From contig NZ_JAJTWT010000004.1 of NCBI RefSeq assembly GCF_021353235.1, positions 372,001 through 436,000 of the forward strand: a DNA stretch of 64,000 nt, given 5' to 3'. The notes under the pieces were generated by a model. The model had not been told where the DNA came from, did no database searches, and worked only from the letters and a program-made list of their open reading frames with translations. This document shows, one piece after another, positions 17,289-38,572 of the stretch. This DNA is from Pelomonas caseinilytica (lineage in GTDB: Bacteria; Pseudomonadota; Gammaproteobacteria; Burkholderiales; Burkholderiaceae_C). The position numbers were made by a program, and so were the translations under genes. The first letter of the stretch is position 1. Each line of letters starts with the position of its first letter.

Positions 17289-17403
17289 TGCTTTCCGTCA
17301 AGGCAATGCAATTTCTTCGGCATGCGCGCCACCCGGCAGGCATGCCAAAGCAATCCGCCCGCGTCCGATGGCTCATCCCGACAGTCCACGATCGCCCAAG
17401 CCC

Positions 17404-18504
17404 ATGAACTTCCACCGTCCGCCCTTCATCGTCCGACTCGCGATCTCGACGACCTTTCTCGCCTGCGCAGCGCAGGCCCATGCCGCGCTGCGCGTCGGCG
17501 ATTCCACGCCCGAAGGCGTGGCTGCGGGCAACACGCCGGAACTCGCGCTCATCATCTGGGACCCGGTCAAAGAGGTCTCCTACACCAAGGACCTGGGCAT
17601 CGCCGTCTACAAGGAAAACTACGCTGGCGGCGATCCGTCGACCAACCTGTTCATCTACGGCCAGCAGGACGCCGGCTACCAGAAGCTGTTCGACCCGCTC
17701 AACACCGACGCGAACTTCCAGTCCTTCTTGTCCAAGTCGACGGACGTCGCCAACCAGATCTGGGCGGTCATCGCGGTCTCGAACGACCCCAATGCGCCCG
17801 CGTTCGCGGGGGGGACTTCGTTCTTCACGACGCTCAACGCCGCGACGCCGACGGGAACACTCAACCCGCAATACACCTACCTGCTCGGCTTGCCCAACAG
17901 CGACTTCGCCAACGGCGCGGGCACGCTCGCCCAGAGCTTCGGCGACATCAGCGCCCAGGCCGGGAGCTGCTCGGGCGCTTGTGCCACGGACTACGGCAAC
18001 AACAGCTCTTACCTCAACGTCAAGGGCCAGACCGCGTATGCCGGCAGCATCTTCAGGGCCGACCACACGCTGTCGGGCGCTGGCGACCACGCGCCGAACA
18101 TCTTCAATCCCGTCAACCGCTCGTCCTGGTTCTACACCGCCACGGTGACCAGCGACAACAGCACCGAACCCATCGCCGTCGACGAGTTCGACAACGGCAC
18201 GATCGCCGGCGGCGGCCATGACGCCTACTGGGGCCTGGGCGTCGACGGCAGCGGCAACTACATCCTCAGCTACACGCTCGAGGCCGCAGTGACGCCGACC
18301 AGCACCGCCGCAGGCGCTCTGCTGCGCCTGCGCACCGATTTCGCCGCCGCCTATGGCCGCACGCGCCTGATCGCGTCGCCGGCCGGCGACACGCTCGATC
18401 TCGGCGGCAGCCACAACGTCACCGCCGTCCCCGAGCCGGCCACCTGGGGCCTGATGGGCCTGGGCCTGGCCGTGGTGGGCCTGCGTGCACGCCGCCGCCG
18501 CTGA
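17404..18504 (+). CDS. PEP-CTERM surface protein
   Basis: 366 residues from ATG 17404 (an in-frame ATG at 17368 would only lengthen the leader). The signal peptide ends at AQAHA. The extracellular part is rich in Asn/Ser/Thr/Gly with two cysteines in GSCSGACATDYG. The C-terminal signal is VPEPATWG, a hydrophobic helix and RARRRR (residues ~342-366). Exosortase processing is expected, but the exosortase must be encoded elsewhere. A strong terminator follows, separating it from the two-partner secretion genes. Confidence 0.9.
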   Translation: MNFHRPPFIVRLAISTTFLACAAQAHAALRVGDSTPEGVAAGNTPELALIIWDPVKEVSYTKDLGIAVYKENYAGGDPSTNLFIYGQQDAGYQKLFDPLNTDANFQSFLSKSTDVANQIWAVIAVSNDPNAPAFAGGTSFFTTLNAATPTGTLNPQYTYLLGLPNSDFANGAGTLAQSFGDISAQAGSCSGACATDYGNNSSYLNVKGQTAYAGSIFRADHTLSGAGDHAPNIFNPVNRSSWFYTATVTSDNSTEPIAVDEFDNGTIAGGGHDAYWGLGVDGSGNYILSYTLEAAVTPTSTAAGALLRLRTDFAAAYGRTRLIASPAGDTLDLGGSHNVTAVPEPATWGLMGLGLAVVGLRARRRR

Positions 18505-18592: not shown

Positions 18593-20245
18593 ATGGACGC
18601 CGCTTCGACGCGCGCCCGCCCGCGGGCCCGCTGGTTCTTCTTGCTCGCGATGGCGATGGTGCTGTGTGCCCATGGCCTGACGGCCCTCGCCCAATCCAAC
18701 CTCCGCTTCGACATCCTCGAGTTCGAGATCGAAGGCAACACGCGGCTGAGCGCACTGCAGGTCGAGGCCGCCGTGATGCCCTTTCTGGGCGAGGGCCGCG
18801 ACATGGCCGCCATCGAGGGCGCGCGCGCCGCGCTGGAGAAGGCCTACCAGGGCGCCGGCTACCTGACCGTCTTCGTCGACGTGCCGGAGCAGCGCATCGA
18901 AGGCGGCCTCGTGCGGCTGGCGGTGCTGGAGGGCCGCGTCGACAAGCTCTACGTGACCGGCTCGCGCTACTACGACCAAGGCCGCATCCGCGCCGTGGCG
19001 ACGGAGCTGGCCGAGGGCCAGGTGCCGAACTTCAACGTCGTGCAGCAGCAGGTGGCCGCACTGAGCCAGACACCCGAACGCCGAGTCCAGCCGGTGCTCA
19101 GGCCGGGCCGCGAGCCCGGCACGGTCGAGGCCGAACTCAAGGTCAGCGACAAGCTGCCCCTGGGCGGCAGCGTGGAGGTGAACAACGCCGCCCCCGCCGA
19201 CACCGAAGCCCTGCGCACCGCCGTCAACCTGCACTACGACAACCTCTTCCAGCGCGAGCACTCGCTGTCGCTGACCGCGCTGACGGCCCCGATGCGGCCC
19301 AGCCAGTCGCAGGTGCTCGTCCTCAACTACCTCGTGCCCCTGGGCGACGGCGACTCGCTGAGCTTCACCGGCGTGCACAGCAGCAGCGACGTCGACACCC
19401 TGGGCGGCACACGTGTGCTCGGCAAGGGCACGACTCTGGGATTTCGCTATGGCATGAACCGCCTGGACGCCAACGCCGCCCACGGCCTTCAGCTGGGCTT
19501 CGACGTCAAGGACCTGAAGGAAGACGTGCAGACCAGCGCCGGCGCCATCAGCACCCCGCTGCGCTACGCGCCGCTGCAGCTGGCCTACAACGGCAACTGG
19601 TGGGGCGAGCAGGGCAGGCAGCAGCAGCTCAGCGTCAACGCCACCTTCGGGCTGCGCCCGGTGTGGCAGCAGGACCGCCAGGACTGCCAGCTCGCCGACG
19701 GCAGCTTCGGCACGGCCGACCAGTTCGCCTGCAAGCGCCGCGGCGCGGACGGCGGCTTCACGACGCTCAAGCTCGACTGGCGCGGCAGCCGCCGTGTCGG
19801 TCCGAGCGAATGGGCGCTGCGCGTGGCCGGGCAGATCGCCAGCCAGCCCCTGGTCAGCGCCGAGCAGTTCGCCGTCGGCGGCGCCGAGACCGTGCGCGGC
19901 TATCCCGAGGCCGCCGTGTCGGCCGACTACGGCGTGCTGGCGTCCTTCGAGCTGCGCAGCCGCAATCTCGCGCCGGCTCTGCTGTCCGCCTTCGAGGGCG
20001 CCAGCCTGCCGCCCTTCACCGAGCTCGTCTTCTTCGGCTTCGGCGACGTGGCCCGCGTGGCCCTGATCCAACCCGAGCCCGGCCAGCCCCATCGCAGCAC
20101 GTTGATGGGCAGCGGCGTGGGCGTGCGCCTGGGCCTGCAGCCGGGGCTGAGCCTGGCCCTGGACTGGGCGCGCCGCCACCGCGACGTCGCCGGCCGGGGC
20201 CTGCCTTCCGAACGCGTGCACGTGCGCGCCGCCCTGCGTTTCTAG
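18593..20245 (+). CDS. Two-partner secretion outer-membrane transporter (TpsB, ShlB/FhaC family)
   Basis: Omp85-superfamily translocator that exports the TpsA protein across the outer membrane. 550 residues from ATG 18593. An N-terminal hydrophobic signal (FFLLAMAMVLCAHGLTALA) is followed by two POTRA domains (LRFDILEFEIEGNTRLSALQ..., then VRLAVLEGRVDKLYVTGSRYYD) and a ~360-residue beta barrel. The conserved L6 loop motif VRGYPEAAVSADYG sits at about residue 434. The barrel ends in an aromatic residue (AALRF), as expected for BAM recognition. The tpsA gene begins 9 bp downstream. Confidence 0.95.
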   Translation: MDAASTRARPRARWFFLLAMAMVLCAHGLTALAQSNLRFDILEFEIEGNTRLSALQVEAAVMPFLGEGRDMAAIEGARAALEKAYQGAGYLTVFVDVPEQRIEGGLVRLAVLEGRVDKLYVTGSRYYDQGRIRAVATELAEGQVPNFNVVQQQVAALSQTPERRVQPVLRPGREPGTVEAELKVSDKLPLGGSVEVNNAAPADTEALRTAVNLHYDNLFQREHSLSLTALTAPMRPSQSQVLVLNYLVPLGDGDSLSFTGVHSSSDVDTLGGTRVLGKGTTLGFRYGMNRLDANAAHGLQLGFDVKDLKEDVQTSAGAISTPLRYAPLQLAYNGNWWGEQGRQQQLSVNATFGLRPVWQQDRQDCQLADGSFGTADQFACKRRGADGGFTTLKLDWRGSRRVGPSEWALRVAGQIASQPLVSAEQFAVGGAETVRGYPEAAVSADYGVLASFELRSRNLAPALLSAFEGASLPPFTELVFFGFGDVARVALIQPEPGQPHRSTLMGSGVGVRLGLQPGLSLALDWARRHRDVAGRGLPSERVHVRAALRF

Positions 20246-20254
20246 AGCCGCGCC

Positions 20255-23200
20255 ATGTCCAACACCGCCGTTCCGCGCAAGACCGCCCTCCTGCTGACGC
20301 CTCTCGTCGCCGCGCTGGCGGCCAGCCTGCCGCTGGCCGCCCTGGCGCAGGCACCGGTGGCGGCACCGCCCCCGCCGCCGATCAACCGCGTGCCCCTGCC
20401 GGCCCCGGGCTGGCGGGTCTACGGCAGCGGCAGCAGCGCGCCGGTCAACGTGAGCAACACGCGCGGCGGCGTGGACATGACCATCGGCCAGACAAGCCAG
20501 CGCGCCATCTACAAGTGGCAGAGCTTCGACATCGGCGCGGCCAGCTCGGTCACCTTCGACATGGCCCAGCCCGGCTCCAGTGCGCTCAACCGCATCGGCA
20601 GCGTCAGCCCCAGCCTGATCTTCGGCCAGCTCAAGGCCACCAACGGCGGCGAGATCCTGCTCTACAACCGCAACGGCATCCTGTTCGGCAGGGATGCGCG
20701 CGTGGACGTCGGCGCGCTGATGGCCACGACGCTGGCCCCGAAGGACAGCGACTACGTCAATGGCTTCGTCACTGCCATCACGGGTGGCAATCCGGCCCTG
20801 AGCATCCGCAACGAGGACGAGGCCAACCCGGGGAGCCTTTACACCGGCAGCTTCGTCCGCATCGAGACGGGCGCCGAGATCAAGACGGCCGAGGGCGGAC
20901 GCATCCAGCTCTATGCCAGGCAGGTGGAGAACGCCGGCACGCTCGCGGCGCCTGGCGGCCAGGTGATCCTGGGCGGGGGCGCCGAGGTCTTCTACAAGCT
21001 GCCGACCGCCGAGCCGCTCTACGCGTCCGAATCCAACCCCAATGTGCCGGCGCTGCGCGGCCTGCTGGTGGAGGTGGGCCGGGCCGACCTGGACTCGGGC
21101 CAGGGCAGGGTCATGAACACCGGCACGATCAGCGTCCCGCGAGGCAACGCCACGCTGGTGGGCCTGGCCGTCAACCAGGCCGGACGCATCAGCGCGACGA
21201 CCAGCGTGTCGCAGAACGGCTCCATCCTGCTGCTCGCGCAGGGGGATGCCGGCACGACCTATCTGGACGGCGGCGCGGTGGTCCCGAGCGGCGACCGGAG
21301 CACCTACAAGCAGGCCGTTCGCAGCGGCCAGTTGACACTGGCCGCGGGCAGCGTCACCGAGATCACGCCGGACAACAACGGCGCGGACGGCAAGCCGCTC
21401 ACCAGCGATGACAGCGCCACGTTCACGCGGTCGCGGCTGGACCTGGCGGGCGGCCAGATCACCTTGGCCCGGGGCGCCAAGGTCGTCGCGCCCGGCGCCG
21501 TCGCGGAACTGCGCGCCCTGGACAAGCCGGCACCGCTCGGCGACCTGCTCGGCAGCGGCAACCCCTTGAACGCGACGGGCGGGCGCATCGTCGTCGAGAC
21601 CGGCGCCGGCATCGACGTCTCCGGCACGAGGGACACCACGGTCAGCGCCGCCCGCAACTTCGTGACGACCGAACTGCTGGGCAGCAACGACCTCAAGGAT
21701 GCGCCGCTGCAGAAGGACGGCCTGCTCTACCGCAACAAGGTCACCCTCGACATCCGCGAGACCTCGCCCATCCTCGGCGACCTGTCCAACTACCGCTCCG
21801 CCGTGCAGCGCACGGCCGGCGAGCGCCTGGCCAGCGGCGGCAGCCTGCGGCTGATCGCCGGCGAGGCGGTGCTGGCGCAGGCCGGCTCCAGCCTGCGCGT
21901 CGACGGCGGCCAGGTGACCTATACCGAGGCGCTGGTCTCGCCCACTCAGCTGTACAGCAGCACCGGCGCGGCCTACACGCTCAACACCGCGCCCAGGGAC
22001 CTCGTCTACACGGCCATCGGCAATGCCGGCACCAGCAAGGCGCGCTATGACCGCTGGGGGCCGGTCGTCAACTACGGCAGTGCCATCCCGGCACGCCTGG
22101 AGGCGGGCTATGTGGACGGCAAAGCCGGCGGCAGCCTGACGCTGGTCGCGCCGACCGTGGTGGTCGACGGCCAGGTCAGCGGCAGCACGCTGACGGGCCA
22201 GCGCCAGCTGCTCGGGCGCGACGCCCTGGCCGCGGCAGGCCGGCTCGCCATCGGCGCCCTCCAGCATGTGGCGGCCTTCGGCGACGGCAGCTACAGGGGC
22301 GCCGTGCTCGGCAGCTTCGCCCTGTCGGCCGATGCCACGCCGCGCCTGGGGGCCGGCGCCCTTCCTGCATCGCTGGACGGCATCGCCTCCGGCCTGTCGC
22401 TCGACACCCTGCGACACGCCGGCTTCGGCTCGGTCAGCATCACGGCCGTCGGCGACGTCAAGCTCCGCGGGGCGCTGAACCTGCCGGCGACCGGCGCGCT
22501 GCGCCTGCAGTCCGAGAGCGGCACGGTCGAGGTGGACGGCTCGGTCCATGCGACCGGCGGCCAGCTCGTGCTGCGCAGCCTGACCGGCGACGTCAGGCTC
22601 GCCGAGCAGGTGAAGCTCGACGTCTCCGGCGCCTGGATCAACGCGGCGCTGGACCCGCTGGGCGCGCAGTCGGCGCCACGGACCGCCATCCAGGGCGGCA
22701 GCCTGACGGTGCAGGCCGGCGGCGACGTCTCGCTGGCCAGCGGCAGCGTGCTGGACGTGTCCGGCGGCGGCTTGGTCGGCACCAGCCAGGCCGTGACGGG
22801 CGCCGCGGCCGGCAGCCTGACCCTGTCCGCCGGGCCGGGCGTGGTGACGCAGGGCCCCGTCCACACCCTCACGCTTGACGGCGAACTGCGGGGTTATTCC
22901 TTCACCCAGGGCGGCAGCCTCGGCATCACGGCCCCGGCCCTGCGCTTCGGCAGCGCGCCCGCCACCCCCGATGCGGCCGGCACGCTGCGGCTCGACGCCG
23001 GCTTCCTCAACCGCGGCGGCTTCCAGAACCTGGCTTTCGAGGGCCGCGAGTCCCTGGTCGTCGAGGCCGGTACCGCGCTCGCACCGCGGCTGCAGCTGTG
23101 GCAGGCCTCGGCCGCGAGCCGCTTCGTGCCCAGCGGCAGCGACGACTGGCGCAGGACGCTGACCTTGAGCGCACCGGCGACCGGCTATGCCAGGCCCGTC

Positions 23201-26200
23201 AACCTGAACCTCGCGTCCAATGGCTACCGGGCCGCCGACCCGCAGGGAACGCTGGTGGTGGCGCAGGGCGCCAGCATCTCGCTGGATCCGACGGCCACCC
23301 TCGGCCTGAACGCGCGCAACCGGCTGAGCCTGGACGGCAGCCTGCTCGTGCCCGGCGGCAAGGTCAGCCTCGGCCTGAAAAGCGACAACGGCAATGCGGG
23401 CCAGGCGCGGTTCCTTTGGCTGGGCAGCTCGGCCCGCATCGACGTGGCCGGCCTGCGCCAGCTGCAGCCCACGCAGGACGGCCTGCTGACCGGCCGGGTG
23501 CTCGCGGGCGGCAGCATCAGCCTGGACGCCGGCGCAGGCGACCTCGCCTTCAGGACCAGCCTGGTGGTGCAGCAGGGCGCCCAGCTCGACGTCTCCGGCG
23601 CCGCCGGCCTGCTGGACGTGCGCGAGCGCGCCGAAGGCGGCGACCGCGTGACGCGCCAGCGGATCGGCAGCTCGGCCGGCAGCCTGTCGGTACGCGGCAA
23701 CGGGCTGATGCTGCTCGAAGGCGACCTGAAGGCCCAGGCCGGCGCGGCCGGACAGAGCGGCGGCAAGCTGCAGGTACGCCTGGAAGCCGGCCTGGTTCGC
23801 GATGCCAGCCTGCCGGAGGTGCAAAGCCTGGTGCTGGCCGCGGGCGACGGCCGGCTCACCGGCGCGCTGGTGGCCGACGACCTGGGCCGCGCGGCCGGCG
23901 TCGAGGCCCTGGCCCGCGTCGATGCGACCTGGGTGGCCCGCTCGGGCGTCGCCGACTTCACCCTCAGCGCCCGCGAGCGCATCGCCGTCGACGGCGGCGT
24001 GTCGCTGGACCTGTCGCGCGCCCTCACCTTGGATTCGCAGGCCCTGGCCGTCACGCCGCAGTCCGGCAAGACCGCCGCACGCCTGTCGGCGCCCTGGATC
24101 AGCTGGGCCGACACCCAGGGGCAGCCGCTGACGGTGGACCAGACCACCCGGGCCCTGCCGGCCGCCAGTGGTGGCAGCGCCAGCCTTGTGCTGCAGGCCG
24201 GCGAGCGACTGGACCTCAACGGCCGCGTCGTCAGCCAGGGCATCGGCGAGCTGGCGCTGCAAAGCCAGGGCGACCTGGTGCTGCAACGACCCACCCCCAG
24301 CGACGAAGGGCGGCTCGCGACCGCGGCCGACCTGGTGCTGAACGCGCGCCAGGTCTACCCGGCCACCGATACCGCCTACACCCTCGACGCAACGGGCCGC
24401 AGCGTCACCATCGGCCAGCCGGCGGGCGAGGCGCCGGACCTGCCCTGGAGCGCCGGGGGCCGGCTCGACGTGCAGGCCGCGACCATCGTGCAAGGCGGCC
24501 GGCTGCGCGCGCCCGAAGGCAGCATCACGCTCAAGGCCAGCGAGGCGGTGCAGCTGCTGGACGGCAGCGAAACCTCGGTCACCGCCAAGGGCCGCAGTGC
24601 TCTCTTCGGCAACTGGAACGGCGAGCTCTGGGCCGCCCCCGGCAGCCTGCCCGGCAAGACCAGCGGCGCCGCGCCGGCCAAGGCCATCGTGCTCGACGCG
24701 CCCAAGGTCGACATCGCCGCGGGCGCCACGCTGGACCTCAGCGGCGGCGGCCAGTTGCTCGGCTGGCAGTTCGTCGCCGGCCCGGGCGGCTCGGCCGACA
24801 TCTTCAGCGCCGCCGACGGCAGCTACGCCATCGTGCCCGGCGTGCAGAGCACCGGCGCGGCCGACAACTCGCTGCCGGGGCTGCCGGCGCTCGGTCGCCA
24901 GATCCATTTCGGCAGCGGCCTGGCCCTGCCCGACGGCACCGTGCTCAGCGGCAGCTACACCCTGCTGCCGGCGCGCTTCGCGCTGCTGCCCGGCGCCCTG
25001 CTCGTGCGTCCGGCCAGCGGCACCGCCCTGGCCCTGGGCCGCGCCATCGCTCGCGACAACGGCAGCCTGCTCGTCGGCGCCCGGCTCGGCCAGGCTGGCA
25101 CGACGGTGCTGGACGCGCTGACCAGCAACTGGCAAGTCCTGACCCCGGCCCAGGCCCGGCGCTACAGCGAGATCCGCCTGGCCGGCGCCGACGCCTTCTT
25201 CAGCGCCCTCGCCGTGCGCAACGACCAGCCCACGCCGGCGCTCAACCGCGATGCCGGCGCCCTCGTCGTGTCGGCCCGGCAGGCCGACATCCGCGGCACG
25301 CTGCGCTTCACCACCGGCAAGGCGAGCAGCGGCGAGGCGGGCCGCGGCGGCAGCGCCTATTTCGGTGCCGAAGACATCCACGTCGGCACGGGCGGCAGCA
25401 GCGGCGGCCTGCAGCTCGACGCGCGGCAGCTCAGCGGCCTGGGCGTCGACAGCCTCGTGCTCGGCGCCGTGCCCATCGACCTGCAGCACCCCGGCAGCCT
25501 CGACGTGCGCGCCACGACGCTGAGCGTCGAGGCCGGCGAGAACCTGGTCGCGCCGACCCTGCTGCTCGCGGCCCGCCAGTCGCTGGACCTGGGCGGCACG
25601 CTCAAGGCCGAGGGCAACGGCGCCACGGCCACCGACTGGCGGCTGAGCGGCGACGGCGCCGCCGTGCTCGCCAGCGCGCGCAGCGACAGCCAGCTTCTGC
25701 GCCAGGGCGCCACGCTGGACGGCGGCAGCCTCACGCTGCGCGCCGGCGCCGCGCTGCGAGCCAGCGGCGGCCTGGTGCAGCTCGACGCCACCAGCCACAC
25801 CGCCATGGCCGACGGCGCCACGCTGGATGCGGCAGCCCTGGGTATCGGCGTGCCCCGCCTGCAGCTCGGCGGCACCCAGCCGCTGGCCGGCGACAGCCTG
25901 GTGATCGGCAGCGACCTGCTGGGCCAGCTCGGCCGTGCCGCCAACCTGCTGCTGCGCAGCTACTCCAGCCTCGACCTCGTCGGCGCCCTGGACTTCGGAC
26001 GCGACGCCGCCGGCCAGACCACCCTCGGCCGCCTGACCCTGGACACGCCGGCCCTGCGCGCCGCGACGGCGGACGACGCCGCGAGCATCTCAGCCCGGTC
26101 CCTGGTGCTGACCAACAGCACCGGCCGCGAAGCCACTGGCGCCGGCGGCGGCGGGCAGATCAGGCTCGCCAGCGGCGCCACGCTGCAGGTGGGGCCCGGC

Positions 26201-29200: not shown

Positions 29201-32179
29201 ACCGGCAACGTGCAGCCGCCGCCCCCGCCGGGCGCCGATACGTCGGCACCCGCGCCGGGCCCCTCCCCGAGCCCGTCGCCCAGTCCCGCGCCCAGCCCTG
29301 CGCCGGCGCCCGACACCCCCGACCCGCTGCCCTCGACGCCCTTCAATTCGCTGCTCGAGAACCTCGCCCCGGCGCTGGACACCTCGGGCCTGCTGCCCTT
29401 CACGCAGCAGGGCGGCGCCGTGAGGCTGACGGCCGGCCGCGACGTCGTCGGCCAGGCGGGCAATGCCAGCCAGCGCTATGCCACCGGCTGGCTGTGGCGA
29501 GCCAAGGGCACGCTGGACGACACGGTGGCCTGGTTCGGCCGGACCGACCTGTTCGCCCAGGGCGTGGCCACCTTCGGCGGCGGCTCGGTGCAGGTGCAGG
29601 CTGGGCGCGACGCCGTCCATCTGCACGCCGCGGCGGCGAGTTCGGGCTTCATCGCCCCCACGGGCAGCGATGCGCAGGGGCTGCCGAGCGGCCTGCAGCA
29701 GTTCGGCGGCGGCAGCGTGCAGCTGCGCGCCGGCCGCGACGTGGTCAGCGGCCAGCTGCTCGCCTCGCATGGCATCGACGTGGCCGCCGGCGGCGCGGTG
29801 CGTACCGAGTCCGGCGCCGACCTCAACCTCGACCCGGGCCTGCAGCTGCTCTACCAGAACGGCGCGATCCGCGTGCAGGCCGGCGGTGACGTGACGCTGG
29901 CCAACGCCCGCAATCTGGCGCTGGCTCTGCCCTCCAAGGCCAACAACGACGCTCAGGGCCAGAACGTCGCATTGCCCATGCTCGATGCAGACGCCCGGCT
30001 GTTGGCGCAAAGCGGCAGCGGCTCGGTCACCTACCTGGGTTCCCTGCAGCCGCTGGAAACCGGCAGCAGCGGGTTGACCACGCCGGGGAAGGTCGTGCCG
30101 GTGGATGTGCGCCTGCTGGCCCCCCAGGGCAGCGTCGGCGCCACCAGCCTGTGGCAGTGGAGCACCGCGGCCGACCCGCTGCAGGCGCGCACCTGGATCG
30201 CCGGCCGCGACGCCGTCAGCGTCAACGACGTGCGGGCACTGGCCCTCGGCTCGCCCCTGGCGCCCCAGGCCACCTCGATGCTCACGCTGGCCGACGAAAG
30301 CCTGCCCAATGCCCGCCTGCCGGAGGCCCAGTTCTTCTCGCGCAACGCCTTGGGCCAGGCCCAGCTCGACCAGAGTTCGCGCGACCCGGTGCTGGTGCTG
30401 TCGGCCCAGGACGACGTGACGTTGAACGACCTGCGCTCGACACGCAGCCTCGTGGTCTCCGCCGGTCGCGACGTGCGGCTGTCGCAGGTGAGCGTGCAGC
30501 ACCAGGGCGCCGCCGCCGGCAGCCCCAGCGACCTGAGCCAGCTGCGGGCGGGCCGCGACGTGCGCTTCACGAGCGGCACCGGCCTGGAAGTCGCCGGCCC
30601 CGGCGACGTGCTGGTGCTGGCCGGCCGCGATGTCGACCTCGGCAACAGCACCGGCATCATCGCCCGCGGCAACCTGTCCAACAGTGCCTTGCTGCCCGAG
30701 GGCGGTGCTCGGCTGACCGTGGTCGCCGGCCTGGGCGCCGACGGCGACGACTACGCCCGCGCCAGTGCCGCGGGCTTCCAGGTCCTCGGCGCCACGGGCC
30801 TGGCAGGCAAGCTCGGCCAGGCCTGGGTGCTGCTCGGCGGCAGCGGCACGGCCGCCGCCTTCGACGCCGCCTCGCCGCCCCGGCAGCTGGACCTGCTGCG
30901 CCAGCGCTTCGGCACCGCGCTGGTGGACCGCCTCGTCATCGAACAGGTACGCGCCCAGCCGGCCCGCGCCGAGGCCGGCGACCAGCGCGCCCGCATGGCC
31001 GCGCTGCTCGGCAAGCCGGTGGACGACCCGGCCGTCACGGAGGCGCTGAAAGGCCAGGCCAGCCTGCTGCAGCCGGCCTGGTCGGCCCTCGACGATGCGG
31101 CGGCCCTGGCCCAGCTCGACAGGCTCGGCACCGCCCAGCAGGCCCTCCTCGTCAGCCGCGTGCTGATGAATGGCCTGGCCGCGCAAAGTCCGCATGCCCG
31201 CGCCTCGGCGCTGTCCCAACTCGCGGCCCCGGCCGACCTCGCCAGGCTGGCCGACTATGTCGCCCAGATGGGCGGCCAGCGGGGCGCGGATGCGGCGGAC
31301 ACGCTGCGCCTGTTCGAGGCCCTGCCGCTGGCGCGGCAGATCCCCTGGCTCAACCGGGTGCTGATGGGCGAGCTGCGCAGCGCCGGCCGCGCCGCCGCTG
31401 AGCTGGAGGGCGACGAGCGCTGGGCCGCCTATGCGCGCGGCTACCAGGCCATCGACCTGCTCTTCCCGCTGGGCGACGCGCCGTCGCGCCCCGCCGCCCA
31501 GGTCCGCATGCCGACCAGCCAGATCAAGACGCTGCAGAACGCCGACATCACGCTGATCAACGCTGGCGGCGGCGTCAATGCCGGCGAGGTGGCGGCGGGC
31601 AGCAAGGCGCCGACCGAGCTGGGCATCGTCACCGTCAACGGCGGCGACGTGTCGGCCGTCGTCGCGCAGAACTTCGACGTCAACCAGTCGCGCGTCTTCA
31701 CCCTCGGCAAGGGCAACCTGCTGATGTGGTCGTCGGGCGGCAACATCGATGCGGGCCGCGGCGCCAAGACCGTCACCGGCGCCCCGGCGCCCGTGCTGCG
31801 CCTGGACTCGAACGGCAACCTGGTGTTCGACACCTCGGGCTCCTTCAGCGGCTCGGGCATCGCCGTGCTGTCGGCCGGCAATGACCTCGACCTCTACGCC
31901 CCCACCGGCGAGATCAACGCCGGCGAGGCAGGCATCCGCTCCAAGGGCAATGCCTTCCTCGGCGCCGAGCGGCTGGTCAATGCCAACGACATCCAGGTGT
32001 CGGGCGCCCGCGCCGGCACCACCGCCGAGGTGGCCATCACGCCGCCCGTCGCCGTGCCGGTGACCCAACCCGCAGCCGCTCCATCCGCCGGCAATGCCGA
32101 CACCGAGAAGGACAAGGACGAGCGCCGCCGCCGTCGCCGCCAACTGTTGCTGGAGTTCCTCGGCTTCGGCACTTCCTGA
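20255..32179 (+). CDS. Giant filamentous haemagglutinin-family exoprotein (TpsA)
   Basis: Secreted beta-helical exoprotein of 3,974 residues, exported by the TpsB just upstream. The signal peptide covers residues 1-32. The TPS secretion domain spans about 35-300 ([49 protein letters not shown]). A long Gly/Ala/Leu/Asp-rich beta-helical region follows. Residues ~2357-2748 form an almost pure Pro/Ala/Ser/Thr linker, with a second short one at ~2942-3026. The last ~950 residues carry repeated AGRDV strands and resemble the DUF3739-type tail. The C-terminus is very basic (ERRRRRRQ) and ends [10 protein letters not shown]. No toxin domain or immunity gene is seen, so an adhesin or matrix protein is likelier than a contact-dependent toxin. 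The downstream ExbB/ExbD/TonB genes suggest an energy-linked step. Confidence 0.93.
27325..28497 (+). repeat. Tandem 6/12/18-bp repeats encoding the proline-rich linker of TpsA
   Basis: About 1.2 kb of degenerate tandem repeats. The clearest unit is an 18-mer like GCACCTTCGCCCGCGCCG (peptide APSPAP), many copies between ~27660 and 28130. It also holds runs of CCGACG (27346-27370) and CCTTCG (27374-27400). All periods are multiples of three, so copy-number change would keep the frame. Four of five copies of a GNGP(S/T)TG...QPPxPP motif punctuate it. Confidence 0.85.
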
Positions 32180-32198
32180 TCCCCGAAAGACCGCCACC

Positions 32199-33890
32199 AT
32201 GATGCGCAAAGCACTCACCGCACTCGCCCTCGCCACGCTGTTGCCCGCCACCGCCCATGCCTGGTGGAACGCCGACTGGAGCGAGCGCGCCAAGGTCACG
32301 CTCAACACCTCGGCCCAGGGGCTGGAAACCAAGGAGGCCGCCGCGGGCGTGGCCGTCGCGGTGCGCCTGCACTCCGGCAACTTCGACTTCACCGCGGCCA
32401 AGGAGGACGGCGGCGACCTGCGCGTCGTCGCCGCCGACGACAAGACGCCGCTGAAGTTCAGCATCGAGCGCTTCGACGCGGTCAATGAACTGGCCGTGCT
32501 GTGGGTGCAACTGCCCAGCGTGCTGCCCGGCACCGACAAGAACGTCTTCTACGTCTACGCCGGCAATGCCAAGGCGGCGGCCGAGGGCGCCGATGGCGGC
32601 GGCTTCGACGCGGCCACCGTCGTCGCCCTGCACTTCAGTGACAAGCCCGCCGGTGGCGACCAGCTCGGCGCCATCAGGCCCCAGTCCCCGCCGGCCATCG
32701 AGCCCAACGGACTGCTCGCCGCCAGCGCCAAGCTCGCCGGCGAGCCCATCGTCTATGCCCTGTCCGACAAGGCCGTCACCGACGCCGGCAACCAGCTGAC
32801 GGCCAGCCTGTGGGTGAAGCTGGACGACGTGCAGCGGGCCACGCTGCTGCAATGGGGCGGCCTGACGCTCGGCCTGAGCGGCGGGCGCCTGGTCGTGCGG
32901 GCGGACCGCGCGGAGGTCTCGGGGGGCGAGGTGCCGGTCGCGCGCTGGACCCAGGTCGCCGTGCGCCTCGGCCTGGGCAAGGCCACGCTCTTCGTCAACG
33001 GGGCGCAGGTCGCGCAGGGCGACCTCGCCACCCCGGCCCTGGGCAGCAGCCTGCGCCTGGGCGAAGGCGCCCGCGGACTGATGGACGAGGTGCAGCTCTC
33101 CGCCGCGCTGCGCAGCGCCGACTGGATCGCCGTCGCCGCCGGCGCCCAGGGCGGCGAGAGCCGGCTCGTAGCCTCCGCGCGCGAAGCGAAGGACGCCGTT
33201 GAGGCCGAGGGCGAGAGCCACGGCTACATGGGCATCCTGGTCAAGAACCTGACGCCCGACGCCTGGGCCGTCATCGGCATCCTGGCCGTCATGTTCGCCA
33301 TCGCGGCCTGGGTGATGGTGACCAAGGGCTTGCTGGTCAACCGGGTCGCCAGGGCCAACCGCAGCTTCGTGCTGCGCTTCCGGGACGCCAGCGACGAGCT
33401 CCTACACCTGGAGCAGCACGCGCCGCATCCGCAGTCCCCGATCTACCGCCTCTACCAGGCCGGTGTGCGCGAGCTGGCCAAGCGCAGGGTCGGCGAGGCG
33501 GGCAGCGCGCCGCTGTCGGGCGCGTCGCTGGACGCCGTCAAGGCCTCGGTCGATGCCGACTACGTGCGCGAGAACGCGCAGCTCAACTCGGGCATGGTGC
33601 TGCTGACCATCGCGATCTCGGGCGGCCCCTTCCTCGGCCTGCTGGGCACGGTGGTGGGCGTGATGATCACCTTCGCGGCCATCGCCGCGGCCGGCGACGT
33701 CAACGTCAACGCCATCGCCCCCGGCATCGCCGCGGCCCTGCTGGCGACCGTGGCGGGCCTGGGCGTCGCCATCCCGAGCCTGTTTGGCTACAACTACCTG
33801 GCGTCGCAGATCAAGAACGCGACGTCGGACATGCAGATCTTCATCGACGAGTTCATCACCCGCGTGGCCGAGCTCTACGGCGCGCGTTGA
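32199..33890 (+). CDS. exbB: DUF2341/LamG-like domain fused to MotA/TolQ/ExbB proton channel
   Basis: ExbB-type inner-membrane proton channel subunit with an unusual large N-terminal extracytoplasmic part; 563 residues. The signal peptide ends at TAHA. A DUF2341 domain follows (WWNADWSERAKVTLNTS..., ~22-150), then a LamG/concanavalin-like region (TASLWVKLDDVQRATLLQWGG, ~200-320). TM1 is near residues 350-372. The ExbB core is in the last 220 residues: LTIAISGGPFLGLLGTVVGV and IAPGIAAALLATVAGLGVAI (TM2 and TM3). It starts 19 bp after tpsA, and two exbD genes and tonB follow. The N-terminal domains could bind exoprotein or glycan in the periplasm; that is inference. Confidence 0.9.
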   Translation: MMRKALTALALATLLPATAHAWWNADWSERAKVTLNTSAQGLETKEAAAGVAVAVRLHSGNFDFTAAKEDGGDLRVVAADDKTPLKFSIERFDAVNELAVLWVQLPSVLPGTDKNVFYVYAGNAKAAAEGADGGGFDAATVVALHFSDKPAGGDQLGAIRPQSPPAIEPNGLLAASAKLAGEPIVYALSDKAVTDAGNQLTASLWVKLDDVQRATLLQWGGLTLGLSGGRLVVRADRAEVSGGEVPVARWTQVAVRLGLGKATLFVNGAQVAQGDLATPALGSSLRLGEGARGLMDEVQLSAALRSADWIAVAAGAQGGESRLVASAREAKDAVEAEGESHGYMGILVKNLTPDAWAVIGILAVMFAIAAWVMVTKGLLVNRVARANRSFVLRFRDASDELLHLEQHAPHPQSPIYRLYQAGVRELAKRRVGEAGSAPLSGASLDAVKASVDADYVRENAQLNSGMVLLTIAISGGPFLGLLGTVVGVMITFAAIAAAGDVNVNAIAPGIAAALLATVAGLGVAIPSLFGYNYLASQIKNATSDMQIFIDEFITRVAELYGAR

Positions 33891-33913
33891 AGCGATGACA
33901 TCGGGAGAGCGCC

Positions 33914-34327
33914 ATGGCCGGTGACGTCAAGACCGACAACCAGCCCTACGACGACATCAACGTCACGCCGATGCTGGACCTGGCCTACGTGCTGCTGGTC
34001 GTCTTCATCATCCTGACGACGGCGTCGGTGCAGGGCGTGAAGGTGAGGTCGCCCGAGACGCAGGCGGCCAACAACCTCGCCAAGCCGCAGACGCGGGCCA
34101 TCACCATCACCGCCGACGGTGCCGTCTACCTGGACGCCTATCCGGTGGACATGGAGCAGCTGCGCACGACGCTGGCCCAGTACAAGTCGGCCAACCCTTC
34201 GCTGCCGGTCGTGCTGAAGGCGGATGCGTCGGCGCAGTACGAGAAGGTGATGCAGGTGCTGGAGGTGGCCAAGAAGCTGGACATCACCGAGATCGGGCTG
34301 GTGACGAAGCGGGCGGGGGCGGAATGA
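33914..34327 (+). CDS. exbD: ExbD-family biopolymer transport protein (first copy)
   Basis: 137-residue partner of the ExbB channel. A cytoplasmic N-terminus (YDDINVTPMLDLAYVLLVVF) carries the conserved Asp at the start of the single membrane helix, thought to be the proton-carrying residue. A ~90-residue periplasmic domain follows (AITITADGAVYLDAYPVD...VVLKADASAQYEKVMQVLE), typical of ExbD/TolR. A ribosome-binding site GGGAGAG precedes the ATG. A hairpin-rich element separates it from the second exbD. Confidence 0.93.
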   Translation: MAGDVKTDNQPYDDINVTPMLDLAYVLLVVFIILTTASVQGVKVRSPETQAANNLAKPQTRAITITADGAVYLDAYPVDMEQLRTTLAQYKSANPSLPVVLKADASAQYEKVMQVLEVAKKLDITEIGLVTKRAGAE

Positions 34328-34369
34328 TGGCGCTCCTGCTGCGTCGTGGTGCAGCCGGCAGGGTCTGTG

Positions 34370-35105
34370 GGGGGCTTTTGCTACGAGCCTCTGGACTCGG
34401 TGCACCGTGCCGGGAATTCGCCCCGGCAGGCGACCTACTTTGGCTTCGCCGAAACCTTCGGTTTTCTGGCCCGCCAGAAAGTAGGCAAAGAGCGGCCCCT
34501 GCAAAACCGCCCACCCGCGATCCGGGTGGGTGCCCTGCGTGCCTTGCCGCTTGCATGCGGCAAGGCGTTCGGCAGGCGTCGCACAGCACGCAGGTGCTGT
34601 GCTCGGTCCAGCCTCACTGCGTCGAACTCCGAGGCTCGCGCCGTACTCGCTTCGTTCGCTGCGCTCACTGCGCTCAGACAACGGCGCGAAGTCAGAGCTT
34701 GAAGCGCGCTGCGCGCGCGCCTCGGAGTTCTGCGCTTCTCGGCGGTTTAGAAGGGGAGACCCCGAACAGCCGAAACAGCCAACAGCCAAACGCCGCATCC
34801 CTGCGGTCGCGGCTGTTCCTTCACTCCCCCTTTGAGCCCGCCGAGGAGCGCAGCACCTTGAGGCCGCGCGCGCAGCGCGCTTCAACAACTGACTCCGCGC
34901 AACTGTCTGAGCGGAGCGTAGCGGAGCGAGTTTTGCGCGGCGCCTCAAGGTGCGAGCACCGCAGGGAACCCCGCCGCGCAGCGGCGGGGCGGGCGGTTCG
35001 GGGGCGGTTTCTTTGCCTACTTTCTTGGGCGCCCAAGAAAGTAGGTCGCCCGCCGGGGCGAACTCCCGGCATGGGCCTGGCCACCGAGGCACTGCAAATA
35101 GAAGC
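34370..35105. repeat. Long hairpin-rich intergenic element, copy 1
   Basis: About 735 bp without a credible gene, lying between two exbD genes. The ends are imperfect inverted repeats: left 34409-34491, right 35010-35072, sharing GCCGGGA(A/G)TTCGCCCCGGC and GGCGACCTACTTT...AGAAAGTAGGCAAAG. The right end contains a perfect 30-bp palindrome at 35016-35045 (half: CCTACTTTCTTGGGC). Inside are several further perfect dyads: GAACTCCGAGGC (34624) with GCCTCGGAGTTC (~34719), GCACCTTGAGGC (34854) with GCCTCAAGGTGC (34942), and CCTTGCCGC-TTGCAT-GCGGCAAGG. Its left end matches that of the element at 61.85 kb, so this is a dispersed family. It could be a MITE-like non-autonomous element or a structured RNA; no transposase is present. 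Confidence 0.75.
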
Positions 35106-35152
35106 ACCCAAGCCCAGGCACTCTTGCCCAAGCCTCCGAAGGAGCGCCTGAC

Positions 35153-35554
35153 ATGCAAGTCAACCAGGACGCCAAGCCCTACGACAGCATCAACGTGACG
35201 CCGATGCTCGACCTCGCCTACGTGCTCCTCGTCGTCTTCATCCTGATGACGACGGCCTCGGTGCAGGGTCTGTCCATCACCATGCCCAAGCCGAGCAACA
35301 AGCCCAGCACCGAGAAGCATGAGCTCAAGATCGTGCAGGTGATGCCGGACGGCGGCGTGCTGCTCAACGGTGTCGGCGTGAGCCTCGCGGAGCTGGAGGC
35401 CCAACTGAACGCCGCCAAGGCGCGCGATGCCGGCATGTCGGTGGCCATCAAGGGCGATGCGCGCACGCAGTACGCCAGCGTCGTGGCGGTCATCGACCTG
35501 TGCAACCGGCTTCAGGTCAACATGGGCTTGGTGACGAGCCGGATCGGCACGTGA
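35153..35554 (+). CDS. exbD: ExbD-family biopolymer transport protein (second copy)
   Basis: 133 residues, clearly paralogous to the first copy in the N-terminal half (YDSINVTPMLDLAYVLLVVFILMTTASVQG) but divergent in the periplasmic half (LKIVQVMPDGGVLLNGVGV...VAIKGDARTQYASVVAVIDLC). The membrane Asp is conserved. AAGGAG lies just upstream of ATG 35153. Its stop overlaps the tonB start (TGATG). Two different ExbD subunits suggest a hetero-dimer in the channel. Confidence 0.93.
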   Translation: MQVNQDAKPYDSINVTPMLDLAYVLLVVFILMTTASVQGLSITMPKPSNKPSTEKHELKIVQVMPDGGVLLNGVGVSLAELEAQLNAAKARDAGMSVAIKGDARTQYASVVAVIDLCNRLQVNMGLVTSRIGT

Positions 35555-36225
35555 TGAAGCCGCTGCACCTCAAGCTCATCGCCGCCGCGGCCTTCGTGCT
35601 GCTCGCCTTCGCGGCCTGGTGGGCCCTCAGCCACATGAAGGCCGAAGGGCCCAGGCGCCAGGTGGCAAAGATCTCCATCCTGCCCGACACGCCGCCGCCC
35701 CCGCCGCCCCCCAAGCAAGAGAAGAAGCCCGAGCCGCCCAAGGACGAGCCCAAGCAGGTGATGCGCGAGGAGCAGGCCAAGCCGGTCGAGGCGCCCAAGC
35801 CGGCCGAGGCGATCAAGATGGAAGGCGCTGCCGGCGACGGGCCGAGCGCCTTCTCGTCGGGCAGCGTGTCGCGCGACTATGCCGGCGGCACGCCCGTCAC
35901 CGGCGCCGGCGGTCCCGCCGGCACGGTCACCGACCGAGCGCAGGAGCGCTTCTACGCCAACACCGCGCGCCAGTTGCTGCAGGGCGAGATCGAGCGCCAC
36001 CTGAAGGCCGACGCCGACCAGCTGACCGCGACCTTCGCCATCTGGCTGGACAAGGACGGCGCCATCCAGCGCTTCGAGCTGAGCGCCAGTGGCAACGACG
36101 GCAACGATGCCGCCTTGCGCGCCGCCCTCGACGAGACCCGCCGCCAATTCAAGTTGCCGCCGCCGCCGGCGCTCGCGCTGTCGCAGCCGATGCGCTTCCG
36201 GCTCAGCGTGCGACCCCAAGCCTAA
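35554..36225 (+). CDS. tonB: TonB-like energy transducer
   Basis: 223 residues. A membrane anchor (LKLIAAAAFVLLAFAAWWAL) is followed by a Pro/Lys/Glu-rich periplasmic stretch (PPPPPPPKQEKKPEPPKDEPK) and a small C-terminal TonB-type domain (EIERHLKADADQLTATFAIWLDKDGAI...FKLPPPPALALSQPMRFRL). It would carry proton-motive-force energy from the ExbBD complex to an outer-membrane partner. No TonB-dependent receptor is in the locus; the candidates are the porin downstream or the TpsB/TpsA pair. ATG 35554 overlaps the exbD stop; GTG 35551 is also possible. Confidence 0.85.
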   Translation: MKPLHLKLIAAAAFVLLAFAAWWALSHMKAEGPRRQVAKISILPDTPPPPPPPKQEKKPEPPKDEPKQVMREEQAKPVEAPKPAEAIKMEGAAGDGPSAFSSGSVSRDYAGGTPVTGAGGPAGTVTDRAQERFYANTARQLLQGEIERHLKADADQLTATFAIWLDKDGAIQRFELSASGNDGNDAALRAALDETRRQFKLPPPPALALSQPMRFRLSVRPQA

Positions 36226-36242
36226 GCCTCCAACCGCCGCCC

Positions 36243-37937
36243 ATGAAGCCCATCCTGACGCCGCTGCTCGCCAGCCTCATCCTCGCCGCCGCCCTGCCCG
36301 CCGGCGCCCAGACCTCTGACAAGGAGGAGATCGCCCGGTTGCGTGCGACGACCCAGGCCCTCATCGACGCCCTCGTCGCCCAGGGCCTGCTCACCCGCGA
36401 CAAGGCCGAGGCCATCCTGAAGCAGGCGCAGGCGTCTGCCACGGCGCCCGCGGCCGCCCCGCCAGCGCCCCGGGCGGAAGCCAGCGCGACGCCCAAGGTG
36501 CTGCGCATTCCCTACGTGCCCGAAACCGTGCGCCAGCAGATGCGCGACGAGATCAAGGCCGAGGTGCTGGCCCAGGCCAGGGGCGAGCGCTGGGGCCAGC
36601 CCGATGCGCTGCCGGACTGGATCGGCCGCATCAAGGTCGGCGGCGACCTGCGCGTGCGGGCGCAAGGCGAGTTCTTCGACAAGACCAACGTCGCCGCGGA
36701 GGTCTATCGCGCCCAGGCCGCCTCGCCGGCCTGGGCCCCCGACCTGAGCAACACGACCACCGATCGACAGCGCCTGACGTTGCGGGGTCGCCTCGAAGTG
36801 GACGCCAGGCTCAGCGACCAGGTGCTGGCCAGCATGCGCCTGGCCACCGGCAGCACCAGCAACGGCGCGACGTCGACCACCCAGACCCTGGGCAACGACT
36901 TCAACCGCTACACCCTCGGCCTGGACCGGGCCTACATCCGCTGGCAACAGGGGCTGACGGGCGACGGCCTGTCCGCCGATCTCGGCCGCATGCCCAACCC
37001 CTTCTACAGCACCGATCTCGCCTGGCCCGACGACCTCGCCTTCGACGGCGTGGCGGCGAAGATCGGCCGCGCCTTCACGCCCCAGCGCAGCCTCTTCGCC
37101 ACGGCCGGCGTCTTTCCGCTGGAGGAACTCAACCTGTCGACCAAGGACAAGTGGCTGCTGGGCGCGCAACTGGGCGGCGAGATGGATCTCGCGCGCGGCG
37201 TGCAGTTCAGGCTCGGCCTGGCGGCCTACGACTTCCGCCACATGGAAGGCCAGCGCGAAAGCAGCCCGCCGCCGGCCGGCCCCCTGAACGGGGCGACCAG
37301 CTACTTCGCCTCGCAATACGGCGCAGGGCTGCGCCTGAAGGGCAACACGCTGATCAACCTCAACGACCCCACCAGCACGGCCGCGCCGACCTGGGGCCTG
37401 GCGTCCAGGTTCCGGCCCGTCAACCTGACCGTCGGCCTGCAGCTCGACGCCAGCGTGCTGCCCGTGCCGGTCGGCCTGACGTTGGACTGGATCAAGAACA
37501 CCGGCTTCGACATCGCCGACATCGAGCGGCGCGCGGGCGAGTCCCTCCGTGACCCGGTCCACCCCGAGAAGACCATCGTCGACAGGACCCATGCCGTGCA
37601 GGCCCGCATCCTCGTCGGCAATCCCACGCTGGCGCGTCGCGGCGACTGGCAGGGATTTGCCGCCTACCGACTGGTGCAGCGCGACGCCTGGATCGACGGT
37701 TTCACGGACACGACCTGGCACCTCGGCGGCACCAACTACAAGGGCTGGAGCATCGGCGGCAACGTCGGCCTGGACCGCAACTTCTGGCTGAGCGCCCGCT
37801 GGACCAGCACGCGCAACCTCGACGACGGGGTGCGCTTCCTGGCCGTGCCGGGCGACGCCACCTCGCTGAGCGGCAACCTCAGCAGTGCGCCGCTCAAGAT
37901 CGAGGTGCTGCAGCTCGACCTGAACGCGAGGTTCTGA
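36243..37937 (+). CDS. Putative outer-membrane porin
   Basis: 564 residues with signal peptide MKPILTPLLASLILAAALPAGA. A short coiled coil (KEEIARLRATTQALIDALVAQGLLTRDKAEAIL) and an Ala/Pro linker follow, then RIPYVPETVRQQMRDEIKAEV before the barrel. The rest alternates as beta strands (RIKVGGDLRVRAQGEFF...RQRLTLRGRLEVDARLSDQVLASMRLATG) and ends LQLDLNARF with a terminal Phe. This matches the 'putative porin' family often found with ExbB/ExbD genes. Separated from tonB by 17 bp, so in the same operon. Confidence 0.87.
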   Translation: MKPILTPLLASLILAAALPAGAQTSDKEEIARLRATTQALIDALVAQGLLTRDKAEAILKQAQASATAPAAAPPAPRAEASATPKVLRIPYVPETVRQQMRDEIKAEVLAQARGERWGQPDALPDWIGRIKVGGDLRVRAQGEFFDKTNVAAEVYRAQAASPAWAPDLSNTTTDRQRLTLRGRLEVDARLSDQVLASMRLATGSTSNGATSTTQTLGNDFNRYTLGLDRAYIRWQQGLTGDGLSADLGRMPNPFYSTDLAWPDDLAFDGVAAKIGRAFTPQRSLFATAGVFPLEELNLSTKDKWLLGAQLGGEMDLARGVQFRLGLAAYDFRHMEGQRESSPPPAGPLNGATSYFASQYGAGLRLKGNTLINLNDPTSTAAPTWGLASRFRPVNLTVGLQLDASVLPVPVGLTLDWIKNTGFDIADIERRAGESLRDPVHPEKTIVDRTHAVQARILVGNPTLARRGDWQGFAAYRLVQRDAWIDGFTDTTWHLGGTNYKGWSIGGNVGLDRNFWLSARWTSTRNLDDGVRFLAVPGDATSLSGNLSSAPLKIEVLQLDLNARF

Positions 37938-37939
37938 CC

Positions 37940-38572
37940 ATGAAGCGCATCGCCCTCGCCTGCCTGCTCGCGGCCAGCCTGAGCATCCAGGCCCAGGAGG
38001 CCAAGCCTTCGAAGGAACGCGAGGCCCTGCGCCGCGCCCAGGCCGCGCTGCGGGCGGCCCAGGAGCAGCAGGCGACCCTGCAGGCCGACAAGGCGAGGTC
38101 GGACGCCGAAGCGGCCACGGCGCAAAGGGCAGCGGCCTCGGCGCGCAGCCAGGCGGCCGGCAGCGCGGCCCGGCTCAAGGCCAGGGAGTCCGAGCTGCAG
38201 GCGCTGCGATCGCAACTCCAGGCCGGCGAGGATGCGCGGCGGCAGGCCGAGACCCGCGCCGCCGAGGCCGAACAGGCCTGCCAGCAGGAACTCCTTGCCG
38301 CGCGGCAGGACCTCGCCGCCCGCCAGCAGGCCAACCAGGCCCTCGTCCAGCTGCTGGAGCGCAGCACCCGGGCCCTGGCCGATGCCGAGGCCAGGAACCG
38401 CCAGCTCTACACCGTCGGCCAGGACCTGGTGCAGCGCGCCCTCGGCCGCTCGCCGCTGGACACCGCCGCGCTGCAGGAGCCGCTGCTCGGCCTGGCTGCC
38501 GTGCGCGCCGAAGACGAGGCCGAGAAGCTGCGCGCGGAGCTGGCCGCCCTGCGCACCACCGGCTCACACTGA
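37940..38572 (+). CDS. Periplasmic coiled-coil protein
   Basis: 210 residues with signal peptide MKRIALACLLAASLSIQA. Nearly all of the mature protein is an Ala/Glu/Arg/Gln-rich coiled coil (~20-155, heptad pattern). A short C-terminal part follows (RQLYTVGQDLVQRALGRSPLDTAALQEPLLGLAAVRAEDEAEKLRAEL). It starts 2 bp after the porin stop and closes the TPS-ExbBD-TonB-porin run. Function unknown; a periplasmic scaffold or chaperone for the exoprotein is a guess. Confidence 0.8.
   Translation: MKRIALACLLAASLSIQAQEAKPSKEREALRRAQAALRAAQEQQATLQADKARSDAEAATAQRAAASARSQAAGSAARLKARESELQALRSQLQAGEDARRQAETRAAEAEQACQQELLAARQDLAARQQANQALVQLLERSTRALADAEARNRQLYTVGQDLVQRALGRSPLDTAALQEPLLGLAAVRAEDEAEKLRAELAALRTTGSH

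Follow-up and report, generated by a model that had tools for sequence, protein, structure and literature searches.

Why should a two-partner secretion (TPS) locus, whose kind of export is reputed to need no energy source, lie beside genes for a proton-driven motor? The question is raised by a stretch of 64,000 nucleotides from Pelomonas caseinilytica (contig NZ_JAJTWT010000004.1, hereafter the window), in which positions 18593-38572 hold tpsB, tpsA, a gene for a DUF2341/LamG-ExbB fusion, two exbD genes, a TonB/TolA-like gene, a Porin_5 gene and a gene for a coiled-coil protein, all on the + strand. The genes were defined by open reading frames (ORFs) and Pfam domain scans, with start sites taken from our own reading, and both sources agree with the original prediction, made from the letters of the window, of eight genes on one strand with these domains. 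We take the locus for a distinct and conserved TPS subclass in which a DUF3739 TpsA is accompanied by a Tol/Exb-type motor driven by the proton-motive force (pmf), a Porin_5 with a periplasmic N-terminus and a coiled-coil periplasmic protein, and, with a probability of about 0.5, for one in which the motor drives a step in the export, anchoring or release of TpsA. It is very probable that the motor, the porin and the TPS pair form one functional unit.

Co-occurrence of the gene set across genomes

A scan of genomes with the ExbB fusion gave 45 named loci, mostly in relatives of Roseateles, Pelomonas, Paucibacter and Aquabacterium and including some Verrucomicrobiota, Methylomonas and Gallionellaceae. 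The original prediction would have been refuted by motor-porin loci lying mostly without tpsA or tpsB, and such a distribution was not observed. Sequence of tpsA or tpsB was present at 43 of the 45 loci, and the two exceptions (L035 and L057) are contigs that start inside exbB.

Linkage was then measured in a class sample (274 genomes) and a phylum sample (299 genomes), both chosen independently of the window sequence. A full-length Porin_5 was defined as a match with E<1e-100 and profile ends at 1-5 and 532-535, weaker or partial matches being uncounted. In the class sample DUF3739 was over cut-off in 18 genomes, spanning 14 families, and full-length Porin_5 was found in 19 that included all 18 (Fisher p 2.8e-27, to be taken as a guide only since the genomes are related). 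The nine DUF3739 genomes of the phylum sample were identical with the nine that carried full-length Porin_5. Two of these (G000 and G211) also belong to the class sample, and the seven others all gave ExbB, ExbD and TonB matches (7/7), those of G628 lying on a different contig from Porin_5 and the exbB of G643 being cut by the contig end. In both samples, every genome with a DUF3739 TpsA over cut-off also had a full-length Porin_5. A DUF2341 match in a frame of ExbB length was present in 17 of the 19 class genomes with full-length Porin_5, the remaining two being fragmentary (the ExbB end lies at a contig edge in G205, and G304 is 64% complete). The ExbB fusion, which had been singled out as especially unusual, is therefore near-constant in this family, and DUF2341 as an extra domain on ExbB/MotA-type proteins has already been described in print (PMC12505986).

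All 19 full-length Porin_5 matches of the class sample besides that of the window were fetched, and their neighbourhoods were scanned with models built from hits of at least 60 bits, leaving out segments with an internal stop. TonB adjoined Porin_5 at 18 of the 19 loci; in the exception, G114, an exbB-exbD-tonB trio lies about 25 kb from Porin_5 on the same contig. TpsA or TpsB was found within the fetched stretch at 13 loci, while five of the six others are short contigs (L072, L074, L078, L079 and L080) and the sixth, L063, has DUF3739 about 15 kb from Porin_5. For comparison, 20 control TpsB loci were hand-picked, non-randomly and mostly from the stronger matches among those listed; for 14 of them the genome has no DUF3739 match, and for the other 6 it has one elsewhere. 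These gave no ExbB, ExbD, TonB, Porin_5 or coiled-coil match of at least 18 bits within up to 20 kb each. The ShlB transporter was over cut-off in 114 of the 274 class genomes; most TPS transporters therefore have no such motor or porin partner, and the DUF3739 system is one TPS subclass only.

The co-occurrence in both samples gives strong support to the predicted tie between the TPS pair and a motor and porin of its own. Chance neighbourhood of the gene set was rejected on the same co-occurrence together with the control loci. A related explanation is that the motor and the TPS pair merely travel together as an island, neither acting on the other, as plasmid occurrences and motor trios that stand alone might suggest. 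The set is, however, kept across the 14 families of the class sample, even where its parts lie apart (G628, G114), and such bystander status is very improbable.

The TPS pair and the conserved tail of TpsA

TpsB (18593-20245) is an Omp85-type outer-membrane transporter with Pfam matches to POTRA_2 and ShlB (E 7.5e-16 and 9.8e-18). Its POTRA domain closely follows the signal sequence, starting about 38 residues downstream of the Met at 18593, and by our reading no FhaC-like N-terminal plug helix is apparent before it. The TpsA exoprotein (20255-32179; 3,974 amino acids) contains an N-terminal TPS domain (Pfam, E 8.5e-21; TIGR01901 matched too), long Pro-rich stretches and DUF3739 near the C-terminus. 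The window thus holds both genes of a type Vb system, a POTRA_2/ShlB TpsB and a TPS-domain TpsA; energy-free transport, likewise a type Vb trait, is made doubtful here by the motor.

Toward the C-terminus, TpsA proteins of the DUF3739 type have a low-complexity linker and then a short conserved motif. In the window this tail reads LLLEFLGFG (32144-32170) and is preceded by an acidic and Arg-rich linker. The motif takes an acidic-(K/R) form in the Roseateles relatives and the form hTVEVLGFG elsewhere, with up to about 75 residues beyond it in some proteins. The tail pattern was found in the last 110 residues of 50 of 56 TpsA, compared with 7 matches in the remaining 112,991 residues, a count that is partly circular, since the first batch of loci had served to design the pattern. 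The tail counts exclude TpsA ORFs truncated at the edge of a locus, ORFs that scored 80 bits or less with the TpsA_C model, and duplicates identical in the last 60 residues. A held-out test used a profile built from first-batch TpsA only (44 training tails, 3 of them off-pattern, 41 used, 18 distinct), and its best match fell within the last 110 residues in 21 of 23 TpsA, where 1.5 were expected. The tail was absent from all four complete TpsA of the control loci. Two genomes carry several TpsA with a single Porin_5 each, three in G565 and two in G643, and the paralogues keep the same tail (IIVEVLGFG, ISVQVLGFG), a pattern to be expected of a tail that docks on common machinery. Genome G520 contains two TPS-motor-porin sets (L121 and L122) with two differing TpsA tails.

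The motor

The ExbB fusion (32199-33890) consists of a signal sequence, DUF2341, a LamG-like jelly roll (Laminin_G_3) and MotA_ExbB. The two ExbD/TolR-like proteins (33914-34327 and 35153-35554) are 42% identical and both keep the membrane Asp in the sequence NVTPMLD. The TonB/TolA-like protein (35554-36225) has a TonB_2 C-terminal domain and, by our reading, an N-terminal hydrophobic helix and a Pro-rich stretch. MotA_ExbB and ExbD domains with a membrane Asp are the hallmarks of an ExbB/TolQ-ExbD/TolR motor, and to this extent the predicted ExbB-ExbD-ExbD-TonB motor stands. Among 123 ExbD-like ORFs from the loci collected, of which a few are paralogues outside TPS-motor loci, 121 fit the pattern [NDS][VIL][TVI]P[LMF]xD, and both misses retain the Asp; since the pattern is so well kept, the motor looks functional as judged from sequence.

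The family names given to the motor did not hold equally well. The best NCBIfam matches were tolQ, tolR and tolA (125, 84 and 24 bits; cut-offs 221, 127 and 59), ahead of exbB, ExbD_2 and tonB_Cterm (72, 66 and 15 bits; cut-offs 206, 123 and 27). The motor parts are below the cut-off of every Tol and Exb model that they matched and by these scores belong to neither family proper. Because the Tol models rank first with all scores sub-cut-off, 'ExbB-ExbD-TonB' is only a label of convenience. The Tol-Pal and Ton systems (TolQRA, ExbBD-TonB) have the MotA_ExbB and ExbD domains, the membrane Asp and a TonB_2-type C-terminal domain in common with the window, but the window ExbB differs from theirs in bearing the large DUF2341-LamG fusion.

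An AlphaFold2 model of the ExbB fusion (62 sequences; mean pLDDT 87.1, pTM 0.59) was mostly beta to about residue 330 and had long helices after that point. Alignments A1 and A2 run three residues and one residue ahead of the Met that starts the respective window protein, and residue numbers in the models are offset accordingly. A Foldseek search with the ExbB model returned structures of TolQ/ExbB along with jelly rolls of a generic lectin-like kind. The topology of ExbB is established, and by it the fused DUF2341-LamG beta part would be periplasmic.

The likeness to TolQ, TolR and TolA brings in a different role, that of a Tol-Pal-like tether in which the motor would link the inner membrane with a partner in the outer membrane and thereby order or strengthen the envelope at the exit sites of very large proteins. 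The partner could be Porin_5, the coiled-coil protein or, at other loci, a type II secretion apparatus. Besides the ranking of the motor subunits and the resemblance of the ExbB model to TolQ structures, this role is favoured by the solved structure nearest to Porin_5, OmpM1, an 'outer membrane attachment porin', and by a paralogous motor trio inside a type II secretion cluster, described below. All Tol scores are nevertheless below the NCBIfam cut-offs, Porin_5 has no SLH domain, and no peptidoglycan-binding domain was named by Pfam in the scanned parts. Overall, a tether is unlikely.

The porin

Porin_5 (36243-37937) is composed of N-terminal helices, the conserved extended segment VLRIPYVPE (36498-36524), which is a candidate docking strand, and a predicted 16-strand barrel. 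In the AlphaFold2 model (55 sequences; mean pLDDT 80.8) the signal is followed by three helices and then by 16 barrel strands, by our count of the strand list, with VLRIPYVPE forming an extended stretch ahead of the third helix. The consensus around this segment in 58 family members is vvRvpYVPe, with Tyr conserved in 98% and Arg in 91%. Full-length family members (58 sequences) carry the N-terminal extension, while the partial Porin_5 matches, a number of which come from these very genomes, all start at profile position 142 or later; porins with such partial matches seem for this reason to be without the motor-linked N-terminus. The Pfam scan returned Porin_5 only, with no SLH domain. The nearest solved barrels were Veillonella OmpM1, followed by AlgE and general porins. 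OmpM attachment porins, at about 14% identity, have an N-terminal periplasmic part as Porin_5 does, and differ from it by their SLH domain.

A TonB-dependent receptor hidden in the window was considered and rejected, as all 57 Plug-domain matches of the genome lie outside the window and none inside it, in line with the original prediction. Uptake could instead involve the porin. In such a scheme TpsA would be a surface trap for a nutrient (a phosphorus compound, metal or glycan), Porin_5 would be a channel gated by the motor, and its N-terminal VxRVPYVPE segment would act like a TonB box. The P. aeruginosa locus discussed below is expressed under phosphate starvation (PMC7035377, PMC4971064). 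Uptake is also suggested by the position of Porin_5 directly after tonB in 18 of the 19 fetched class loci, by the N-terminal extension that partial matches seem to lack, and by two alkaline phosphatase genes near the motor on a Methylomagnum plasmid. The predicted barrel, however, has 16 strands and no plug domain, as in ordinary porins, whereas the TonB targets known so far are plugged 22-strand receptors. Uptake also leaves the TpsA tail unexplained, and motor trios without an adjacent Porin_5 occur on the Methylomagnum plasmid and at L135-L137. The porin itself is better explained by uptake through Porin_5 or by a Tol-like tether than by export; taken as a whole, uptake is a minority possibility that deserves to be kept in view.

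Relation to known systems

The same gene set is found in the P. aeruginosa locus pdtA-phdA-pdtB-exbB2-exbD2-tonB4-PA0696-PA0697 (PUMA3/VreI-PhoB regulon), in which the order from exbB onward is that of the window: ExbB, ExbD, TonB, putative porin and a further protein (PMC2729926, PMC7035377). The arrangement is therefore less unusual than first claimed. A cluster of TpsA, TpsB, ExbB, ExbD, TonB and porin is the content of pdt/PUMA3-type loci and is present in the window and its relatives, a likeness of published gene content. The last gene of the window locus (37940-38572) occupies the position of PA0697 and encodes, by our reading of the sequence, a secreted coiled-coil-like protein for which no Pfam family was matched. 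The two loci differ in that tpsB precedes tpsA in the window and there are two exbD genes, whereas P. aeruginosa has tpsA first and one exbD. The window also has PEP-CTERM genes upstream, and no vreAIR-like regulator was recognised among its gene calls, part of which were scanned against Pfam. In P. aeruginosa one promoter is reported to transcribe phdA through PA0701 (PMC4971064). An account of 2020 still describes exbB2-exbD2-tonB4 as an uncharacterised putative TonB system and PA0696 as a putative porin (PMC7035377).

Plasmids of Klebsiella and Cupriavidus carry tpsB-exbB-exbD-tonB-porin-hypothetical-YbjN with a PPIase gene nearby, like PA0692-PA0699, and by our model their ExbB proteins have the DUF2341-LamG part. 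On a Klebsiella pneumoniae plasmid (L081, 2097-5247) the TpsB frame is interrupted and a C-terminal piece of TpsA lies upstream, the motor and porin genes being uninterrupted.

Association of the PUMA3 cluster with TPS, ExbBD and PA0696 homologues in several genera was reported in 2009 (PMC2729926). This association raises the possibility of signalling, in which the motor and the TpsA tail would report secretion to a PUMA3-type system through a VreA-like protein with a TonB-like C-terminus. Weak TonB-model matches near tpsA at L114, L119, L123 and L124 point the same way, but no VreA-like gene was recognised around the window locus in the part of the gene calls that was scanned, and signalling is highly unlikely. 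Taking tpsA and the motor genes together, weak TonB-model matches that are possibly VreA-like lie nearby at L113 and L115 in addition to these four loci.

Classical TPS systems (FHA/FhaC, HMW1, CdiA/CdiB, CdrA/CdrB) have the TPS domain, the POTRA/ShlB transporter and the giant exoprotein in common with the window; the 20 control TpsB genes differ from it by having neither motor nor Porin_5, and their four complete TpsA by having no tail. A TPS pair with a TonB connection is known from the haem-haemopexin system HxuABC, and a TPS review names TonB once in its main text, for HxuC (PMC5422565). HxuC is a TonB-dependent transporter; the window locus has none but encodes its own motor. The system is thus real, conserved and little studied, and its kind has already been glimpsed in P. 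aeruginosa. What is new is the near-obligate linkage, the tail of TpsA and the motor-linked N-terminus of Porin_5.

Possible role of the motor

Owing to the conserved C-terminal tail of TpsA, the best-supported role of the motor is in export, anchoring or release; the chance that it acts there rather than in uptake is about even. The constant linkage, together with a subclass tail common to paralogues, points to a motor or porin partner that handles the TpsA C-terminus. TpsB would thread TpsA outward as usual, and the end of TpsA, a disordered linker with the strand-like tail hTVEVLGFG, would stay in the periplasm. The TonB-like protein, the jelly-roll domain crowning the ExbB ring, or both, may then engage the tail or TpsB/Porin_5, and the proton gradient would be used to finish, hold or release the exoprotein. 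As the C-terminus is the last part to exit, TpsA with its tail docked would be kept on the cell surface, comparable to the C-terminal retention of CdrA by a cysteine hook (PMC7616799). A more specific and tentative form of pmf-driven TPS is that the TonB/TolA-like arm on the lectin-crowned ExbB ring grips the C-terminal strand of TpsA and pulls, locks or releases it. The strand might then be a 'TonB box' carried by a secreted substrate and not by a receptor, a possibility to be taken with equal reserve. Direct binding of the tail by the TonB-like protein itself is conceivable, though doubtful.

The motor is also found away from TPS genes. The class sample contained 20 DUF2341 matches in frames of ExbB length (587-728 amino acids), 17 of which are in the TPS genomes described above. 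The other three are second copies in G240, G223 and G254, each of which has a TPS-linked copy elsewhere. Each of these copies (L135-L137) belongs to an exbB-exbD-tonB trio that has neither tpsB nor Porin_5 within 20 kb. The G223 trio (locus L136, 3948-17827) is embedded in a type II secretion gene cluster (secretin, T2SSE, T2SSF, T2SSG), with a TPS-domain protein of 214 amino acids and a DsbC-like protein as neighbours, and the G240 trio adjoins an A/V-type ATPase gene. The predicted linkage consequently holds for motor, porin and TPS pair together but not for the trio alone, 3 of whose 20 ExbB-length matches stand apart, and a trio exclusive to TPS was rejected. The trio can serve apart from TpsB and Porin_5, and TpsA need not be the only client of the motor. 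The type II secretion setting in G223 is easier to reconcile with a role in export or in the envelope than with uptake through Porin_5.

Several observations weigh against the subclass as proposed and against action of its motor on TpsA. The trios in G240, G223 and G254 slightly reduced our confidence, which remains high, in motor, porin and TPS pair as a single functional unit. Genome G208 (85% complete) has a full-length Porin_5 without a DUF3739 match, and G327 has a sub-cut-off DUF3739 match without Porin_5. The held-out tail profile missed two of 23 TpsA, at L115 and L122, where the tail variants ranked sixth and second, and L122 nonetheless lies beside a full motor. Export alone does not explain the porin. 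The P. aeruginosa locus is controlled by phosphate starvation along with a phosphatase secretion system (PMC7035377, PMC4971064), which suits uptake. An insertion mutant of PA0695, the tonB homologue, was as virulent as the wild type in zebrafish, as were tpsA and tpsB mutants (PMC2729926), and other type V systems are reported to translocate without an energy source, even into liposomes (PMC5422565). No published test of the motor in TpsA secretion was found among the titles and abstract openings of the papers listed, and no experiment links the two.

Gene spacing and surroundings of the locus

The intergenic gaps are 9 bp between tpsB and tpsA, 19 bp between tpsA and exbB, 23 bp between exbB and the first exbD, 825 bp between the two exbD genes, 17 bp between tonB and the porin gene and 2 bp before the last gene, and the second exbD stop and the tonB start overlap by one base. 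The short gaps originally described are thus real (at most 23 bp) except between the exbD genes, where there is a dispersed repeat (34330-35152, + strand) that is not part of the machine. This repeat has 96 matching pieces in the genome, about 15 of them long ones besides the window copy, and both strands frequently match at a single site; the element therefore carries inverted repeats. Translated matches to it occur at the same position in the relatives L017 and L020, and the spacing between the exbD genes is too small for it at L018, L019 and L021. An ORF at 34324-35151 was rejected as a gene, being without a Pfam family and sitting in the multi-copy repeat. Two exbD genes are present in the window and in most close relatives (L017-L045); a single exbD is the usual state at the fetched class loci and in distant relatives.

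Upstream of the locus, positions 1868-10711 hold type II secretion-like genes (GspG-like, GspF-like and pseudopilin genes, all by our reading), including a secretin identified by Pfam (6265-9291). They recall the type II secretion systems beside the P. aeruginosa pdt locus and the Cupriavidus plasmid loci. Two PEP-CTERM proteins (14717-15670 and 17368-18504) are encoded just upstream of tpsB, and for a secreted-looking protein of 484 amino acids (15790-17244) neither a Pfam family nor a convincing relative of solved structure was found (best E 0.046).

Implications for type V secretion

An export class long described as energy-independent here comes with its own proton motor, and the DUF3739 subclass, hardly ever seen in these samples without that motor, is a natural test case. 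Should the motor prove to act on TpsA, the locus would stand for an energised form of type V secretion. Its TonB-like motor would then have a secreted protein as client, which to our knowledge would be new. The tail of TpsA and the Porin_5 segment provide two short handles that can be deleted, which makes the proposal testable, in P. aeruginosa as well.

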